This document shows positions 2,891-9,997 of a DNA stretch of 9,997 nt, one piece after another; the first letter of the stretch is position 1, and the number at the start of each line of letters is the position of its first letter. A model generated the notes under the pieces. That model saw nothing but the letters and a program-made list of their open reading frames with translations, had not been told where the DNA came from and made no database searches. Origin of the DNA: Acidobacteriota bacterium (lineage in GTDB: Bacteria > Acidobacteriota > Terriglobia > Terriglobales > Acidobacteriaceae); assembly GCA_021793595.1 (NCBI GenBank), contig JAJYSL010000157.1:1-9997 (forward strand), read 5' to 3'. The position numbers were made by a program, and so were the translations under genes.

Positions 2891-2896
2891 AGGTGA
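2891..2896 (+). promoter_or_regulatory. Possible ribosome binding site favouring a TTG start at 2902
   Basis: AGGTGA lies five bases upstream of an in-frame TTG codon (2902-2904). It overlaps the GTG codon (2893-2895) otherwise taken as the start of the regulator. If it is the real Shine-Dalgarno site, the protein starts three codons later, as MAKASPKR. The DNA-binding domain is unaffected either way. Confidence 0.35.
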
Positions 2897-4011
2897 CTCG
2901 GTTGGCTAAGGCATCTCCCAAGCGGCTCTATCTCATCCCGGTTCTTTCCAAAGCGCTCGACGTGCTGGAGCTTCTCCAACGCGAGGGCAAGCCCATGTCC
3001 CTGGAAACCATGCATCAGCGGACGAAAGTCTCAAAAACTACGGTGTATCGCATTCTGAAAACCTTGACGCACCGGGGTTACATCGCGCAGTCGCAGGACG
3101 GGCTCTATCGGCCGATCAGCAGCCCCACCAAGAAGGTATTCGGCTTTGGATGCCAATCCGCAGAGATGTCTTTTTCGCAGGCAGTCACCAAGAGCTTGCA
3201 GTCCGCAGCGGCCGATACCGGCATCGATCTTCTGATTCTCGACAACAAGTACGACCCCACAATTGCTGTACGTAATGCAGATGAATTCGTCCGTCAAGGA
3301 GTCGATCTCGTCATTGAATTTCAAGTCGATCAAGACGTCGCCGCCATCATTGGAGACAAGATTGCCGGTGCCGGCATTCCGTTGATTGCTGTCGATATTC
3401 CGCATCCCCATGCGGTGTTTTTTGGAGTCGATAATTTTCGGGTCGGATTCGAGGCGGGGCAATTGCTCGCCCGTCACGCACAGCAGTACTGGACCAGCAA
3501 GCCGAACTGGGTTCTTGGCCTCGATCTTGCCGAAGCGGGCCCGCTCGTGCAGAGCCGCATCACGGGGGCGTTCGAAGGTGTGCGCTCCAATCTGGCAGAA
3601 ATTCCCATCGAAGCCTTTGTTCGCATGGATGGCCGCGGGTTGCAGGACATCAGCTACCATCTTGTTTTGGATTTTCTGCATCGCCACCCCAAGGATCGGG
3701 GCATCCTAATTGCGGCTGCGACCGACGCCAGTGCCCTGGGAGCTGTTCAGGCCGCTCATGCCCTGAAGCGAGAGCGCCATGTCGCCGTAGTCGGGCAGGA
3801 CTGTATTGAAGAGGCGCTGGAAGAGATTGCTTCCCCACAAAGCCCGCTGATTGGCTCCGTCTCGCACGAGGCGGATACCTACGGCGCACGTTTGATCCAG
3901 TTGGGACTTTCCATGTTGGCCGGGCGAAACGTTCCACCCTACAACTACGTGGAACATAAGGTAGTCGAAAGACCGCACTCCCCGCTGGAAAGTGCAAAAC
4001 CGAGGAAATAA
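2893..4011 (+). CDS. IclR-type winged helix fused to a sugar-binding periplasmic-binding-protein-like domain; probable rhamnose operon regulator
   Basis: This 372-residue protein looks like a one-component transcription regulator. Residues about 16-73 form an IclR-type winged helix-turn-helix: PVLSKALDVLELL, then LETMHQRTKVSKTTVYRILKTL as the helix-turn-helix (37-58), then HRGYIAQSQDGLYR as the wing. Residues about 82-360 do not match the usual IclR effector domain. They read like the RbsB/LacI-sensor fold: GFGCQSAEMSFSQAV (84-98), VRQGVDLVIEF (133-143), GVDNFRVGFEAGQLLA (178-193), AATDASALGAVQAA (275-288) and AVVGQDC (298-304). There is no signal peptide, so it is cytoplasmic. The start is GTG at 2893, or TTG at 2902, which has a better-placed AGGTGA. 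It lies directly upstream of the rhamnose operon on the same strand and divergent from hemE, so L-rhamnose or a related sugar is the inferred ligand. Whether it activates or represses cannot be read from the sequence. The domain calls are firm; the target is inference. Confidence 0.85.
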   Translation: MTRLAKASPKRLYLIPVLSKALDVLELLQREGKPMSLETMHQRTKVSKTTVYRILKTLTHRGYIAQSQDGLYRPISSPTKKVFGFGCQSAEMSFSQAVTKSLQSAAADTGIDLLILDNKYDPTIAVRNADEFVRQGVDLVIEFQVDQDVAAIIGDKIAGAGIPLIAVDIPHPHAVFFGVDNFRVGFEAGQLLARHAQQYWTSKPNWVLGLDLAEAGPLVQSRITGAFEGVRSNLAEIPIEAFVRMDGRGLQDISYHLVLDFLHRHPKDRGILIAAATDASALGAVQAAHALKRERHVAVVGQDCIEEALEEIASPQSPLIGSVSHEADTYGARLIQLGLSMLAGRNVPPYNYVEHKVVERPHSPLESAKPRK

Positions 4012-4018
4012 ATCCGAT

Positions 4019-4036
4019 TGTTTCACATCTGAAACA
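4019..4036. promoter_or_regulatory. Perfect inverted repeat, candidate operator for the rhamnose operon
   Basis: TGTTTCA (4019-4025) and TGAAACA (4030-4036) are exact inverted copies separated by CATC. An 18-base site with 7-base perfect arms just downstream of a regulator gene and upstream of the operon it likely controls is a classic operator arrangement. The TGAAACA half-site resembles those of the IclR-family regulator KdgR, but with the arms in the opposite order. Binding by the IclR/PBP fusion is inferred from position. Confidence 0.6.
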
Positions 4037-4231
4037 GTTGCCCTATTGTATGATCGTGAGAGTTGGGGCCAGCGGCGTGCAATCCGAAACAGATATTCTG
4101 TAACGTTGGGCGTCTGCAGTCCGTTGCCGGTTCCCGGGTTCAGGCGTGCTATGCGTCCCTGAAGAGCCGGCGAACCCGTTTCCATTCTTGTATGGGCAAG
4201 GAGTGGGATCTTCCTCGTCCGCAACCGCTGG

Positions 4232-4241: not shown

Positions 4242-6449
4242 ATGCCGAATCGCTACCTGGAAAATCGCTGGGACAAGAAACTTGCCGCAACGTTAACCGA
4301 ACCTGAACTTCTGCGCTACCGCTCCAACCTGCTCGGCTCAGATCTGCGCATCACCAATTACGGCGGCGGAAATACCAGCGCCAAAGTCACTCAGCCAGAC
4401 CCGCTCAATGAAAAGCCCACTGAAGTCCTGTGGGTCAAAGGCAGTGGCGGCGACCTCGGCACCATCTCGATCAACGGTTTCGCAACTCTATATCTCGAAA
4501 AATTCTGTGATTTGGCCGGAATCTATCGCGGTGTCGAGCACGAAGACGACATCGTCAAGTTCTATCCGCTCTGCGCGTTTGGCCAGAATACTGTCGCCGC
4601 GTCGATTGATACTCCTCTTCACGCCTTCCTGCCCGCACGGCACATTGACCATTTGCATCCCGACTGGGGAATCGCCCTTGCTGCCGCCGCTAACGGGGAA
4701 GAGCGAATGCAGGAATTCAACCGGCGTTTCGACCACCAACTGGTTTGGCTACCCTGGCAACGGCCGGGTTTTGAACTCGGCTTGATGCTCAAGCGTGCCG
4801 TCGAGGCCAATCCAAATTGCGACGGGATTGTCCTCGGTGGCCACGGATTGTTTTCCTGGGGAGAAACTTCGGAAACCTGCTACCTGAATACCATCGCGCT
4901 GATCGATGAGCTGGGTCAGTTTGTGCAGGAACATATCGAGGCGGCCGGAAATACGCTGTTTGGCGGCGAACTTTTTTCGTCGCACCCGGAACATGAGGCC
5001 ATTGCTGTCGATCTGCTGCCTTTCCTGCGTGGGCGCCTGTCCAGTCCTCAGCGAGTGATCGGCAATTACTGCGCCCTTCCGGAAGTCTTGCGATTTGTAA
5101 ATTCAAAAGAAGCCGAGACGCTCGCTGCACTTGGAACCAGTTGTCCTGACCATTTCATTCGCACCAAGGTCCGCCCACTTTTTGTTCCCTGGAACTCGTC
5201 CCAGGAAGCATCGCAGCTACGCAATGCTTTCGACGCCGCCCTGGAAAGGTACCGTCGGGATTACGCCCAGTACTATCAAGCGCACGCCCTGCCTGACTCA
5301 CCGACGATGCGCCCCGCCAATCCAGCGATCGTATTGATCCCAGGCATCGGCATGTTCAGTTTCGCCAAAAGCCGGGCCGAAGCGCGTCTTGCCTCCGAGT
5401 TCTATGTAAACGCCATTCACGTGATGGAAGGCGCTTCCGCGCTGGCCGACGCCAACACAACGAAGAAATATCCCGCGGAATTTCCGCAGGCGGGCCCCGC
5501 AGCTCCGTCCTCCGCGTTTGAGAGTTACTCCAACTACGTGGCGCTGCCGATTGGAGAGGCATTCCGCATCGAGTACTGGGCCCTTGAGGAGGCCAAGCTT
5601 CGCCGCCAGCCGCCGGAGAAACCTCTCAGCCGCCGCGTCGCCATGATCGTGGGTGGAGGCAGCGGTATCGGCCGCGAGGCCGCGCTTCTCGCCGGAGCCA
5701 GCGGCGCCACCGTCGCCGTCGCGGATCGCAACATTCCTGCTGCCGAAGCGGTTGTCACAGATCTTCGAAATCTCTATGGCCGCGACGCCGCACACGCAGT
5801 CGAAATTGACATCACGCAGGAAGCTTCCATTCGGACTGCGCTGCGTTGCGTCATTGAACATTGCGGAGGTCTCGATCTCCTGATCAACACAGCCGCTCTT
5901 TTCCCCGCGTCTGCGGACAATACAACTTCGCAAACGCAATGGGGAAAGACGCTTGAAATCAACGTAACGGCCAACTACTTTCTCGCCGAGCAGGCGGCGG
6001 CCATCTTCCGTGAGCAGGGCCTGGATGCCAGTGTTGTGCTTACGAGTTCTGCAAACGCGGTTGTGGCAAAACGCGGCAGCGAAGCCTATGACGTGAGCAA
6101 AGCCGCCGTGAGTCACCTGGTTCGAGAGCTGGCCGTTTCGCTTTCACCGCTGGTTCGCGTCAACGGGATCAGCCCCGCAACCGTTATCCGCGGGTCCACG
6201 ATGTTTCCGCGCGAGCGGGTGATGGCCTCACTAAAGAAATACAGCATCAGTTTTAACGCCTCAGCGAGCGACGACGAGCTGCGCAATCTGCTGGCGGAAT
6301 TTTACGCGCAGCGTACTCTTACACATCAGCCGATCGATCCAGTTGACTGCGCGCGAGCCGCTCTCTTTCTTGCCGGCCCAGAAGCACGTTGCACCACTGG
6401 ACACATTGTTCCTGTGGATGGCGGTCTGACCGAGGCTTTTCTACGTTGA
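4242..6449 (+). CDS. rhaEW: Bifunctional rhamnulose-1-phosphate aldolase / L-lactaldehyde dehydrogenase
   Basis: This 735-residue fusion performs the last two steps of L-rhamnose breakdown. Residues about 20-400 are a class II (zinc) aldolase domain that splits L-rhamnulose-1-phosphate into dihydroxyacetone phosphate and L-lactaldehyde. ITNYGGGNTSAKV (37-49) is the phosphate-binding segment. The HLHPD motif (His137, His139) and GGHGLFSWG (His201) supply the likely metal ligands. Residues about 463-735 form a short-chain dehydrogenase: cofactor loop GGGSGIG (471-477), acidic VADRN (Asp495) favouring NAD, LTSSAN with catalytic Ser (600-605), and YDVSK with Tyr616 and Lys620. It ends with PVDGGLTEAF. 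This half is the expected lactaldehyde dehydrogenase. Length and domain order match the RhaEW fusion known from comparative studies of rhamnose pathways. The ATG at 4242 is preceded by AAGGGG. The stop overlaps the presumed TTG start of rhaB. Confidence 0.93.
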   Translation: MPNRYLENRWDKKLAATLTEPELLRYRSNLLGSDLRITNYGGGNTSAKVTQPDPLNEKPTEVLWVKGSGGDLGTISINGFATLYLEKFCDLAGIYRGVEHEDDIVKFYPLCAFGQNTVAASIDTPLHAFLPARHIDHLHPDWGIALAAAANGEERMQEFNRRFDHQLVWLPWQRPGFELGLMLKRAVEANPNCDGIVLGGHGLFSWGETSETCYLNTIALIDELGQFVQEHIEAAGNTLFGGELFSSHPEHEAIAVDLLPFLRGRLSSPQRVIGNYCALPEVLRFVNSKEAETLAALGTSCPDHFIRTKVRPLFVPWNSSQEASQLRNAFDAALERYRRDYAQYYQAHALPDSPTMRPANPAIVLIPGIGMFSFAKSRAEARLASEFYVNAIHVMEGASALADANTTKKYPAEFPQAGPAAPSSAFESYSNYVALPIGEAFRIEYWALEEAKLRRQPPEKPLSRRVAMIVGGGSGIGREAALLAGASGATVAVADRNIPAAEAVVTDLRNLYGRDAAHAVEIDITQEASIRTALRCVIEHCGGLDLLINTAALFPASADNTTSQTQWGKTLEINVTANYFLAEQAAAIFREQGLDASVVLTSSANAVVAKRGSEAYDVSKAAVSHLVRELAVSLSPLVRVNGISPATVIRGSTMFPRERVMASLKKYSISFNASASDDELRNLLAEFYAQRTLTHQPIDPVDCARAALFLAGPEARCTTGHIVPVDGGLTEAFLR

Positions 6450-7981
6450 AGGTTCCAGCGGATCGGCGCGCGATTGTTGCCGTTGATTTAGGCGCGCAAA
6501 GTTGTCGTGTGTCGTTACTCAGGTGGCTTCCGAAAGGTCCGAGCATTCAACTGGTTCATCGGGTGGCCAACGCACCGGTGGCAAGTGGTGGCGATCTCCG
6601 CTGGAACCTTTCATTGCTCTGCACTGCCGCGGATGAAGGCTTGCGTCGTTGCGCAGCGATTGCGACAGAAGGCATCGCAGCCATCGGCGTCACCGGGTGG
6701 GCAGTAGATTATGTTCGCCTGAACGGAAGCTTTGCCGCGGCCTCCGCGGACTCTGCGCGTCTGACACCGATCGCCGATCCATTTTGCTATCGCGACACCC
6801 GCACCGGACCTGCGATGGAGGCGCTCCACGCAAAGATTCCAGCCGACCAACTCTACGCGCTGACCGGAATCCAGGTCCTTCCTATAGACACTCTGTATCA
6901 GCTGTATGCGGATGGAACCGCCGGTATCCCAGCCAATCTTCCGTGGCTTAATTTGCCTGAATACCTGCTCTATCGCTGGGGAGCGAAGCCGGTTGCGGAA
7001 TATACCAACGCCACCCACACCGCGTTGGTCGTGCTGGGCAAACAACAGTGGTCGCAGGAAATATTTGATGCGGCTGAGTTGGAAATCTCCGCAGCCCCGA
7101 AGATCGTCCCTCCGGGTTCAATTGTTGGCCGACTGCAAGGACCGCTGGCCGAGTTGCCTGCTCTGCAAAATACGACACTGATCGCACCTGCCTGCCATGA
7201 CACGGCGTCCGCCATCGCCGGTATTCACGCGCCAGGGAATGATTGGGCCTACATCAGCTCCGGGACTTGGTCATTGGTGGGCACCGTGTTGGATCGGCCT
7301 TGCGCCGGGCCAGAGTCCGCGCGATTGAATTTCACAAATGAAGGCGGCGTTGGCGGAACAATCTGTTTTCTGCGCAACGTCAATGGACTGTGGCTGCAAG
7401 ATCAATGCATGGAAGCGTGGAGGGCGAACGGCGAACATCGCGCCATCGAAGAATTAATCGAGGCAGCCGCGACGCTCCCTTCTCCACACTCTTTGATTGA
7501 CGTGGATGACCCGCAATTGATCGCTCCGGGCCAAATGCCTAAGCGCATCGCCCTGCAACTGGAAAGCGGCGGCATTTCTGCGAAGCCATTTCTTTCCTCG
7601 CCTCCGGCCATGATCAATCTGATTCTTCACAGCCTCGCCGCACGTTATGCCGACGTGCTGCGTCAGATCGAGACATTGACGGCGAAGAAGTTTCGACGGC
7701 TCTATATTGTAGGCGGCGGCAGCCGAAATCTTTTGTTGAACCGCCTCACGCAACGAGCGACTCAACTGGAGCTGGTATGTGGAGCGCAAGAGAGCTCCAC
7801 CGTTGGCAACCTATCCATCCAACTGGCCGTATTGCAAAAGCTGCAAGTCGGCCTGGGAGGCGAGTATCGTGAGAACGTGAAACAACAAGGGGTGGACCGC
7901 GAGGCAGTCTCCTCTTGGGCAGGCACGCTAGCCGATGCGCAAGCGCAAGCGACTTCAACAATCGAATCGTACCCAGCATAA
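6446..7981 (+). CDS. rhaB: L-rhamnulokinase (FGGY carbohydrate kinase)
   Basis: This kinase phosphorylates L-rhamnulose with ATP to give L-rhamnulose-1-phosphate. From the TTG at 6446 it is 511 residues, near the roughly 490 of the E. coli enzyme. FGGY motifs in order are AVDLGAQSCRVSL (12-24, first phosphate motif), GVTGWAVDYV (81-90), DPFCYRDTRT (111-120), ACHDTASAIAG with presumed catalytic base Asp252 (249-259), YISSGTWSLVG (269-279), NFTNEGGVGGT (295-305), LYIVGGGSRN (419-428) and the adenosine-side ESSTVGN (449-455). The MDGGL-like loops and WLQDQCMEAW are typical of rhamnulokinases. The chosen TTG overlaps the rhaEW stop as TTGA, giving coupled translation, with GAGG at 6432-6435 ten bases upstream. 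An in-frame ATG at 6389 would add 19 unrelated residues inside rhaEW and is less likely. Confidence 0.92.
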   Translation: MKVPADRRAIVAVDLGAQSCRVSLLRWLPKGPSIQLVHRVANAPVASGGDLRWNLSLLCTAADEGLRRCAAIATEGIAAIGVTGWAVDYVRLNGSFAAASADSARLTPIADPFCYRDTRTGPAMEALHAKIPADQLYALTGIQVLPIDTLYQLYADGTAGIPANLPWLNLPEYLLYRWGAKPVAEYTNATHTALVVLGKQQWSQEIFDAAELEISAAPKIVPPGSIVGRLQGPLAELPALQNTTLIAPACHDTASAIAGIHAPGNDWAYISSGTWSLVGTVLDRPCAGPESARLNFTNEGGVGGTICFLRNVNGLWLQDQCMEAWRANGEHRAIEELIEAAATLPSPHSLIDVDDPQLIAPGQMPKRIALQLESGGISAKPFLSSPPAMINLILHSLAARYADVLRQIETLTAKKFRRLYIVGGGSRNLLLNRLTQRATQLELVCGAQESSTVGNLSIQLAVLQKLQVGLGGEYRENVKQQGVDREAVSSWAGTLADAQAQATSTIESYPA

Positions 7982-8014: not shown

Positions 8015-9232
8015 ATGACTACACTCGGACCATCGGATGCAAATTCAGCAAACATCATTGACCGTCTCTCGAAGCATCTCGATCAATTTGCGATCGAAGT
8101 TCCCTCGTGGGGATTCGCCAATACGGGCACTCGGTTCGGAAAGTTTGTCCAGCCCTCGGCGGCCAGCACACTAGAGGAAAAATTTGCGGATGCCGCCCAG
8201 GTGCATCAACTATCAGGCGCCAGCCCCAGCATGGCGACACACGTGTTGTGGGATTTCCCGAACGGTCTACGAGACGTAGCGACAGTCCGCGACCTGTGCC
8301 GGCATTACGGTATTCGCGCCGGAGCCATCAATCCAAATCTTTTCGAGAGCCAGAATTTCAAATTTGGCTCGTTCGGCAATCCTAATCCGGCGATCCGTCA
8401 GCAGGCTCTCGATCACGTGCTGGAGTCCGTCGCCATAGCCCGCGAACTGGACAACGCCGATATTTCTCTCTGGTTCGCCGACGGATCTAATTATCCCGGC
8501 ACGCAAAACATACGCCACCGCATCGACTGGTTTCAGGAAGGATTATCCAAGACTCACGCTGCCCTCGCGCCCGGCCAGCGTATGCTGGTCGAGTACAAAC
8601 CATTCGAGCCAGCCTTCTATCACACCGATATCGCGGACTGGGGAATGGCGTTGCTTTTCGCGCGCGCAGCCGGACCGCAAGCCTTCGTCCTGGTCGATAC
8701 CGGGCATCACTATCAAACGCAGAACATCGAGCAAATCCTGGCATGGCTGCAGCATGAACAAATGCTCGGCGGTTTTCACTTCAACGATCGCCGTTACGCG
8801 GACGACGATCTCACCCTGGGTTCTATCGATCCTTATCAGGCCTTCCGACTGTTCGACGAGATTTTGGCGTACCACTCGGAGCACCCGGAAGCGCCCACGC
8901 CCGCCTATGTGATCGACCAGAGTCATAATCTGAAAAATAAAGTGGAAGCCATGCTGCAAACCGTGCTGACTGCCCAGGAACTGTATGCCAAAGCATGCCT
9001 GGTCGATCACACGCGGCTCGCAGAACTGCAACGCGAGTGCCGCCTGGTGGAAGCCGAGGAATGCTTGCGATCCGCCTTCTGGACCGATGTGCGGCCGGTC
9101 CTACGGCAGTGGAGACGTGGGCGCGGGCTTCCTGAAGATCCGCTGCAGGCGCTTCGCGACAGTGGCTATATCGAACGCGCAGCAGCCGAGCGTGGAAGCA
9201 AGAACAAGAGCGCGGTGTCGAGCTATGCCTGA
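8015..9232 (+). CDS. rhaI: L-rhamnose isomerase, Pseudomonas stutzeri type (RhaI)
   Basis: This 405-residue cytosolic TIM-barrel enzyme isomerises L-rhamnose to L-rhamnulose, the entry step of the pathway. It belongs to the broad-specificity RhaI type rather than E. coli RhaA. All metal ligands I recall from the P. stutzeri structure appear at a constant offset of 26 residues: Glu193 in LVEYKPFEP, Asp228 and His231 in VDTGHH, His255 in GGFHFND, Asp263 and Asp265 in YADDD, and Asp301 in VIDQSHN (Ser303 also conserved). A gapless match over this core is strong evidence for two intact metal sites. P. stutzeri-type enzymes also act on other aldoses such as D-allose in vitro, but the operon context points to rhamnose. 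The gene follows rhaB by 33 bases and precedes the lactonase-family gene by 39, so one transcript is likely. Confidence 0.93.
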   Translation: MTTLGPSDANSANIIDRLSKHLDQFAIEVPSWGFANTGTRFGKFVQPSAASTLEEKFADAAQVHQLSGASPSMATHVLWDFPNGLRDVATVRDLCRHYGIRAGAINPNLFESQNFKFGSFGNPNPAIRQQALDHVLESVAIARELDNADISLWFADGSNYPGTQNIRHRIDWFQEGLSKTHAALAPGQRMLVEYKPFEPAFYHTDIADWGMALLFARAAGPQAFVLVDTGHHYQTQNIEQILAWLQHEQMLGGFHFNDRRYADDDLTLGSIDPYQAFRLFDEILAYHSEHPEAPTPAYVIDQSHNLKNKVEAMLQTVLTAQELYAKACLVDHTRLAELQRECRLVEAEECLRSAFWTDVRPVLRQWRRGRGLPEDPLQALRDSGYIERAAAERGSKNKSAVSSYA

Positions 9233-9271: not shown

Positions 9272-9997
9272 ATGAAAAAAATCACCCGGCGGAATTTTGT
9301 CTTGGGCATTGCGAGTCTTCCAATGGTCAGCCAATTATCGTTGGCGGCCAGCAGGCGAAGCAAGCGAATCTACATTGGCACTTACACCAAAAAATCCAGC
9401 CAGGGTATTTACGTGTACCGCTGGAAACCCGCGTCGGGCGAGATGGAAGAGATTGGCGTTGCCGCAAAAACTCCCAATCCGAGCTTTTTGACACTGTCTC
9501 CAGACCATAATGCCCTATATTGTGTGAATGAACAGAATCACACCACTGGGAACGTCTCCGCTTTTGCGATCGACCGCGCCACGGGCAAGCTGACCCCTGA
9601 AAATGTTGTGCCATCCGGCGGCTCGGCGCCTTGCAACCTGACAACGGATCACACCGGCCACGCACTGTTCGTGGCCAACTACGGCAGCGGCAGCGTATCC
9701 AGCTACAAAATTCTCTCCGGCGGAAGCCTCAGCCAGCCAGTCTCCAACATTTTCTTCAAAGGCCACAGCATCGATCCCGAACGGCAGAAGGAGGCGCACA
9801 CACATTGCACGACTGTGTCTCCAAACAACAAATATCTATTGGTGAACGATCTTGGCCTGGATCGTATCATGGTGTTTCACTTTGATCCGAAGAGCGCGAA
9901 ACTCACCCCGAACGATCCACCGTTCTACAGCGCTACGCCCGGCTCCGGACCGCGCAACCTGGCATTTCATCCCAACAGAAAATGGGCTTATTCCATC
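9272..9997 (+). CDS. Tat-exported lactonase-family beta-propeller protein, N-terminal part (cut by window edge)
   Basis: This reading frame is open from ATG 9272 to the right edge (242 codons, no stop), so the gene is incomplete. The N-terminus MKKITRRNFVLGIASLPMV is a twin-arginine (Tat) signal: TRRNF, a hydrophobic stretch, then a likely cleavage near SLA/AS at residues 23-27. After export the mature part reads as the seven-bladed propeller of the 6-phosphogluconolactonase-like lactonase family (Lactonase_7). Visible matches are RIYIGTYTK (32-40), GIYVYRW, NPSFLTLSPD, LFVANYGSGSVSSY, and HTHCTTVSPNNKYLLVNDLGLDR with the family's HxH and DLGxDR. Typical full length is about 350-390 residues. 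True activity is uncertain, since many exported members have no proven substrate. It sits 39 bases after rhaI, suggesting co-transcription. The ribosome site is weak (GGAA close to the ATG). Confidence 0.85.
   Translation, partial: MKKITRRNFVLGIASLPMVSQLSLAASRRSKRIYIGTYTKKSSQGIYVYRWKPASGEMEEIGVAAKTPNPSFLTLSPDHNALYCVNEQNHTTGNVSAFAIDRATGKLTPENVVPSGGSAPCNLTTDHTGHALFVANYGSGSVSSYKILSGGSLSQPVSNIFFKGHSIDPERQKEAHTHCTTVSPNNKYLLVNDLGLDRIMVFHFDPKSAKLTPNDPPFYSATPGSGPRNLAFHPNRKWAYSI

Follow-up and report, generated by a model that had tools for sequence, protein, structure and literature searches.

In passages of PMC4218819, AraR of B. subtilis is described as a chimera that joins a GntR winged helix to a domain of the GalR/LacI type; it acts as a dimeric repressor of sugar-use genes and is DNA-bound when the sugar is absent. 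For rhamnose, the main text of a 2013 survey of regulons (PMC3870299) reports AraC, DeoR and LacI regulators with local regulons, and the words IclR and Acidobacteri are absent from that main text. In passages of a survey of regulator architectures (PMC5882156), 80 companion domains are given for IclR, and a periplasmic-binding-protein (PBP) domain is not named there. Among the matches listed in the open-licence literature, no title or abstract opening described a chimera of IclR and PBP parts or a rhamnose regulator of the IclR type.

The DNA analysed here was a stretch of 9,997 nucleotides from an Acidobacteriota bacterium of the Acidobacteriaceae (assembly GCA_021793595.1, contig JAJYSL010000157.1), called the window below. 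It encodes an IclR-PBP chimeric transcription factor that resembles AraR in that a non-LacI winged helix is joined to a sugar-binding PBP-fold domain; since AraR is a precedent, the general plan is already known. The two differ in their parts: AraR has a GntR head and a LacI-type sensor and responds to arabinose, whereas the head of the chimera is of the IclR type and its sensor is ABC-transporter-like. It shares the DNA-binding head with the IclR family (PcaU, KdgR, BhcR), but a PBP domain stands in place of the IclR effector domain. With the sugar-binding proteins of ABC transporters (RbsB, YtfQ and those of rhizobia and Acidisoma) it shares the fold and signature of the sensor domain; these proteins have a leader-like N-terminus (by eye) where the chimera has a DNA-binding head. 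Like the AraC, DeoR and LacI regulators of rhamnose use, it is predicted to control rha genes, and we regard this regulon prediction as well supported. The features of the window are as follows.

2695–2718, + strand: second predicted operator, 19.9 bits, collinear with the lutA promoter of relatives (L001 4786–4951); its place upstream of lutA is conserved in L001–L005 and L022
2719–2814, + strand: remnant of the lutC 3' end (tblastn to residues 188–219 of L019 LutC, 59%; collinear with the end of L001 lutC from 2734)
2893–4011, + strand: gene of the IclR-PBP chimeric transcription factor, from GTG as listed; TTG 2902 is the likelier start
2944–3090, + strand: HTH_IclR winged helix, residues 18–66 (Pfam PF09339, E 2.6e-14)
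3130–3972, + strand: sugar-type PBP sensor, residues ~80–360 (PF13407 and solved ABC-transporter binding proteins)
4019–4055, + strand: predicted operator upstream of rhaD, TTTC-N6-GAAACAGTTGCCCTATTG, with a 24-base core at 4029–4052 (footprinting and matrix; the best site of the window, 26.6 bits)
4242–6449, + strand: rhaD-type bifunctional rhamnulose-1-phosphate aldolase/short-chain dehydrogenase, a probable target (NF006189, E 2.1e-289, above cut-off; frame and start checked)
6452–7981, + strand: rhaB, rhamnulokinase (TIGR02627, E 4.3e-93, below the curated cut-off; start set by inspection, ORF listed from TTG 6389)
8015–9232, + strand: rhaI, L-rhamnose isomerase (TIGR02635, E 3.2e-137, below the curated cut-off)
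9272–9997, + strand: lactonase with a seven-bladed propeller, running past the window end, probably the last gene of the cluster (PF10282, E 3.2e-65)

Architecture, distribution and sensor of the regulator

The open reading frame at 2893–4011 that the initial annotation had pointed out was present; it has a GTG start and 372 amino acids. Its start was revised: GTG 2893 falls inside a Shine-Dalgarno-like AGGTGA(C) that is common to close relatives, and for this reason TTG 2902, giving 369 amino acids, is the likelier start. The N-terminus is taken up by the winged helix from about residue 16. PF09339 matched residues 18–66 with 53.1 bits (cut-off 22) and PF13407 (Peripla_BP_4) matched residues 87–345 with 83.5 bits (E 2.3e-23; cut-off 35.1), so that the claimed joining of an IclR winged helix to an RbsB-like domain was borne out. 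A short linker connects the two. The alignment with solved ABC-transporter binding proteins covered residues ~76–360. Among the best 25 of 29 Pfam families, the remaining winged-helix models reached at most 28.7 bits, and the IclR effector domain (PF01614), the LacI head (PF00356) and the GntR head (PF00392) were not found. Peripla_BP_1 (PF00532) also passed its cut-off (38 versus 22.2 bits), and the LacI-type effector domain PF13377 stayed under its own (23 versus 26.5 bits). In a diverse alignment of 75 relatives, both PF09339 and PF13407 were present in every member, and PF01614, PF00356 and PF00392 were absent from the 23 families matched. The N-terminus is thus IclR-type in the chimera and these relatives by Pfam, rather than LacI or of another family, and the C-terminus is not the ordinary IclR effector domain. 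NCBIfam models of PcaR/PcaU, BhcR and KdgR aligned only within the first ~110 residues and binding-protein models mainly with the remaining part, all of them below cut-off.

Near-full-length matches (E ≤1e-50, covering most of both domains) numbered at least 52 in 29 of 297 Acidobacteriota genomes, a lower bound as at most six candidates were scored per genome. Three protein searches gave 3136, 4981 and 202 relatives, each among ~8000 scored candidates. Among the matches listed (120 per search), both domains occurred in 120/120, 120/120 and 119/120 relatives, and the organisms named were Acidobacteriota. Of 72,556 plasmid records, 21 matched and none covered 80% of the query; the 21 listed matches began at residue 74 or later. 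The proposed class of such regulators therefore exists within Acidobacteriota, according to both the genome scan and the protein searches. In a tree of 70 regulators, the window protein was grouped with those of L001–L006 with good support. The tree was built without L016 (regulator frame broken, 71 amino acids), though this locus is counted among the 42 loci discussed below; the regulator set excluded L021–L023 (partial regulator) and L025 and L103 (no qualifying match).

The class had been described as domain-swapped, and here the claim stood in part: the class is real, but instead of a swap from LacI the sensor looks recruited from the substrate-binding protein of an ABC transporter. A profile of the family sensor gave 144–211 bits for four plasmid-encoded binding proteins of Acidisoma, Bradyrhizobium and Rhizobium, and 54 bits for the best non-member among 50 PBP and LacI loci of five Acidobacteriota genomes; the sets are unequal, as the ABC proteins came from matches in the 72,556 plasmid records and the LacI set from five genomes. 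Among solved structures (best 60 of 93), ABC binding proteins led at 2e-23, with PurR at 8e-8. The motifs DN, IEFQ.D and DIP.P.A.FFGV.N are common to the chimera sensor and the Acidisoma and Rhizobium proteins. On the Acidisoma plasmid that ranked top among the plasmid matches, genes for an L-rhamnonate dehydratase, an ABC transporter, a sugar-binding protein and a separate annotated IclR protein are clustered (L169, 2637–10573). Both halves of the chimera thus lie side by side in a rhamnose setting, which makes gene fusion an attractive origin. The Rhizobium binding protein adjoins a transporter and an arabinose isomerase.

Alignment to sugar-binding proteins placed R222, T277, D303 and H325 on what we take to be the arginine, asparagine, aspartate and glutamine of the RbsB pocket. 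The residues T277, D303, C304, S324, H325 and E326 were kept in 93–100% of the 29 members of the rha clade and differed in two other clades, which is consistent with clade-specific ligands. From the pocket residues and the neighbourhood, our best guess for the ligand is L-rhamnose or L-rhamnulose.

Gene neighbourhoods of the regulator and its relatives

The best NCBIfam models for the rhaB and rhaI products of the window were rhamnose-specific. A lactonase gene also follows rhaI in L002–L005 and L021; that of the window has a twin-arginine-like N-terminus, RRNFVLG (by eye). Genes for ABC permeases or ATPases were not found among the seven window genes scanned with Pfam. Upstream of the regulator, hemE and hemH lie on the opposite strand; a role in the system was considered for them and set aside, and they were taken as local synteny.

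The initial annotation had linked the regulator to rhamnose and called for a survey of sugar operons beside such proteins. Within flanks of up to 8 kb, rha genes were found in 39 of the 42 loci with a regulator at least 55% identical, a count that includes same-assembly pairs (L004 and L009; L056 and L076; L057 and L078). Gene order varied between rhaI-regulator-rhaD-rhaB in the Granulicella-type loci and regulator-rhaD-rhaB-rhaI in the window type, so the linkage has been kept through rearrangement. Many loci additionally contain lutABC, for L-lactate oxidation, and rhaT. The exceptions L011, L056 and L057 have a rha-clade regulator without rha genes in their flanks. Their best operator matches scored 10.8, 12.6 and 14.2 bits, with shuffle maxima of 10.6, 12.6 and 10.0, and the L057 regulator adjoins a glycosidase-like gene (GH43/GH32/GH130 matches). 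This conserved neighbourhood, together with a motif common to promoters of the rhamnose pathway, including ones that are not linked to the regulator, supports the suggested link to rhamnose.

In the window, lutABC appears to have been lost by deletion. Positions 2560–2727 are collinear with L001 4786–4951 and positions 2734–2930 with L001 7842–8038; the ~2.9 kb that separate these blocks in L001 (lutA, lutB and most of lutC) are absent. The scar spans 2695–2817, where the lutC 3' end and the lutA operator are retained. The regulator gene now lies ~180 bases downstream of this former lutA operator (2695–2718) and may be under its control. In L002 and L003 the start of lutA (a 5' remnant) was kept instead, another form of lut loss.

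Distant paralogues (32–40% identity) adjoin other sugar genes. Nineteen picked neighbours were compared, several of which had no match at the thresholds used; those identified included the mannonate dehydratase UxuA, a rhamnose mutarotase, arabinose-isomerase-like proteins, a transaldolase, another rhamnose isomerase and an alpha-L-rhamnosidase. Near one paralogue (L062, 15147–17707), the best matches of a RuBisCO-like protein and a kinase were the apiose-breakdown proteins OiaX and OiaK, with scores below cut-off; this suggests an apiose-type pathway and sensor. Another paralogue (L069, 9404–12287) adjoins UxuA, a short-chain dehydrogenase and a gluconolactonase-like ORF (by eye, with no NCBIfam match), and is possibly a uronate sensor.

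Predicted operators

A core element, GAAAYA-N7-TATTG, precedes rhaD. Footprinting of the regions upstream of rhaD in the window, L001–L006, L021 and L023 gave a GAAACAGTTGCCCTATTGTAT-like block with TTTC-like bases six positions upstream in eight of nine rows. The ninth row was L005, where the extracted stretch started past the block, which was found there afterwards. The common form is GAAAYA-N7-TATTGAA, with a weak dyad (AATA-N7-TATT). The dyad TGTTTCA-N4-TGAAACA was rejected as the operator: its seven-base arms are perfect in the window only and not in relatives, and the operator was therefore defined by footprinting and matrices.

A matrix was trained on 33 rhaD sites, and a region was called positive above the 99th percentile of mononucleotide shuffles. 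Upstream regions of lutA, which were outside the training set, were positive in 24 of 26 cases, with few positives among same-orientation controls (rhaB 0/22, lutB 1/24, lutC 1/27, hemE 1/7). Scored on the same strand only, rhaT was positive in 4/22 and rhaI in 1/15 cases; the regulator's own upstream region was positive in 5/44, one being an artefact. A second matrix combined the rhaD and lutA sites and was scored on both strands. With it, rhaT was positive in 21 of 22 regions, 16 of these being lutA sites of the shared divergent region, and rhaI in 10 of 18; in six of the eight misses rhaI lies inside the operon, which is not so in L007 and L094. Its controls gave rhaB 1/22 (the window itself) and lutB 1/25 (an artefact in L013). 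The regulator's own upstream region rose above the shuffles in only 6/44 cases, including an artefact in L014. The L013 lutB and L014 regulator positives were discounted as the gene begins at a contig end.

The window sites scored 26.6 bits (4029), 19.9 bits (2695) and 18.5 bits (6233). The last lies inside the rhaD coding sequence and is probably due to chance, and for that reason single scores near 19 are weak. In the window and its close relatives the motif abuts a -10-like TATGAT, TATAAT or TATTAT; at several loci no clear -10 followed the motif by inspection. Two rha clusters that adjoin a distant paralogue (L095, L098) had no operator above the shuffles, as would be expected if paralogues have sites of their own. 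Near a further paralogue (L058, ~3493–3517), a 23.5-bit operator-like match precedes, by ~230 bases, a long ORF with the look of a TonB receptor by eye.

Twenty-four genomes, chosen for having the regulator, were searched for the pattern with at most one mismatch, giving 20 + 36 = 56 sites (reversed-pattern control: 10). Of these, 46 lay at rha, lut or rhaT loci, two at probable acetylesterase genes, one ~90 bases ahead of a long ORF resembling a TonB-dependent receptor by eye, and seven elsewhere; the seven look like chance matches. Each acetylesterase site (G052 and G220) directly precedes a GDSL hydrolase gene, with a Pfam GDSL match in both. The encoded proteins (L125 5120–5968 and L126 6064–6897) are probable rhamnogalacturonan acetylesterases, located away from the rha cluster; that of G220 (L126) matched the rhamnogalacturonan acetylesterase PDB 1DEO at E 3e-29. 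As the two sites are alike in their surroundings, they may represent one event. Exact sites also occurred in rhaT|lutABC units on another contig than the regulator (G205) or 1.3 Mb away from it (G064). A second rha cluster of G300, which has no regulator, contained one-mismatch sites. Simple linkage to the regulator does not account for these three cases, which makes them informative. The second cluster of G300 (C5; L124, 1633–10938) comprises rha, lut and rhaT genes, with the operator at rhaI and at rhaT|lutA.

Across Acidobacteriota, the exact pattern was found in 13/22 genomes that have the clade and in 7/275 that lack it (control: 8 sites); for the rhaD-type core the figures were 10/22 and 1/275 (control: 3). 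The Fisher p values of 2e-12 and 5e-12, respectively, are overstated, since the patterns were derived from such loci and relatedness was uncorrected; the 275 comparison genomes were taken irrespective of their rha gene content. Outside the clade, the exact pattern is at background. Seven of the 22 regulator genomes (G001, G276, G142, G284, G244, G182 and G174) had neither exact pattern.

Proposed mechanism, alternatives and meaning

The architecture of the chimera, its conservation, its linkage to rha genes and a motif common to pathway promoters in regulator genomes can be read directly from the DNA. The most likely role of the chimera is to switch the genes of rhamnose degradation when it senses rhamnose or a compound formed early from it. 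We hypothesize, with a probability of roughly 0.8, that it is a cytosolic one-component, rhamnose-responsive regulator of L-rhamnose use, with its IclR head on the predicted operators and its PBP domain on L-rhamnose or an early intermediate, the ligand relieving repression. We infer that the chimera binds the motif, that it dimerises, which ligand it senses and that it acts as a repressor rather than an activator. In this mechanism, a dimer would hold the operator through its IclR heads, whose winged helix would bind the semi-palindromic GAAAYA-N7-TATTG in the promoter of rhaD-rhaB-rhaI; in relatives, the lutABC, rhaT and rhaI promoters would be bound as well. The element abuts the -10-like TATGAT in the window, so the bound chimera would block RNA polymerase. 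Binding of L-rhamnose or an early intermediate, for instance L-rhamnulose, to the C-terminal PBP domain would close its lobes, change how far apart the winged helices of the dimer stand, and lift repression.

The same protein and regulon could instead work through ligand-dependent activation, a possibility that we consider less likely. Activators are frequent in the IclR family, and the loci that lack a clear -10 after the motif would suit one; where the motif does abut a -10-like sequence, however, it would cover the -35 region, and occlusion fits at least as well. It is unlikely that the motif belongs to another, unlinked regulator or is a general promoter element, with the chimera controlling something else or only itself. 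Motif and regulator share one gene cluster in most loci, operator binding is a prediction, and the two could have been inherited together with the cluster without direct binding. Against this reading stand the background frequency of the exact pattern in genomes without the clade, the unlinked rhamnose-related promoters that bear the motif in clade genomes, the rha clusters next to a distant paralogue that lack it and the near absence of positives upstream of rhaB, lutB and lutC.

Two further readings concern the protein itself. That it is a LacI-type regulator with an exchanged head, its sensor being an ordinary LacI effector domain, would agree with the PF00532 match and with source names that label some paralogues as LacI family. 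We consider this quite improbable, as the sensor profile favours ABC-type proteins over the best non-member from five Acidobacteriota genomes, PF13377 remained below cut-off and, among the best 60 of 93 solved structures, ABC binding proteins were far ahead of PurR. JGI source names, such as 'ribose transport system substrate-binding protein', would make it a transport protein of the periplasm whose N-terminal extension is spurious, yet the IclR helix is kept in all 75 members. Moreover, no ABC permease or ATPase gene adjoined it by eye in loci with ORFs listed, whereas the Rhizobium and Acidisoma binding proteins do adjoin transporter genes; we give this reading almost no weight.

With somewhat lower confidence, we consider it probable that an IclR head captured a sugar-binding protein of an ABC transporter and that the resulting paralogues radiated in Acidobacteriota to separate pathways (rhamnose, uronate, fucose/arabinose-like and apiose-like), partly in the role that LacI regulators have elsewhere. 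The regulon described here would then be the first IclR-type rhamnose regulon, and would extend past its own cluster to pectin de-acetylation and lactate oxidation. Few bacteria are commoner in soil than Acidobacteriota and, to our knowledge, little is known about how they sense plant and microbial sugars. A large regulator family gains a defined architecture, its rhamnose branch gains a predicted operator and regulon, and names such as the transport-system label cited above are corrected. The family also shows a binding protein of the transporter type put to use for sensing inside the cell, and may provide a sensor part for sugars that are detected by few known regulators.
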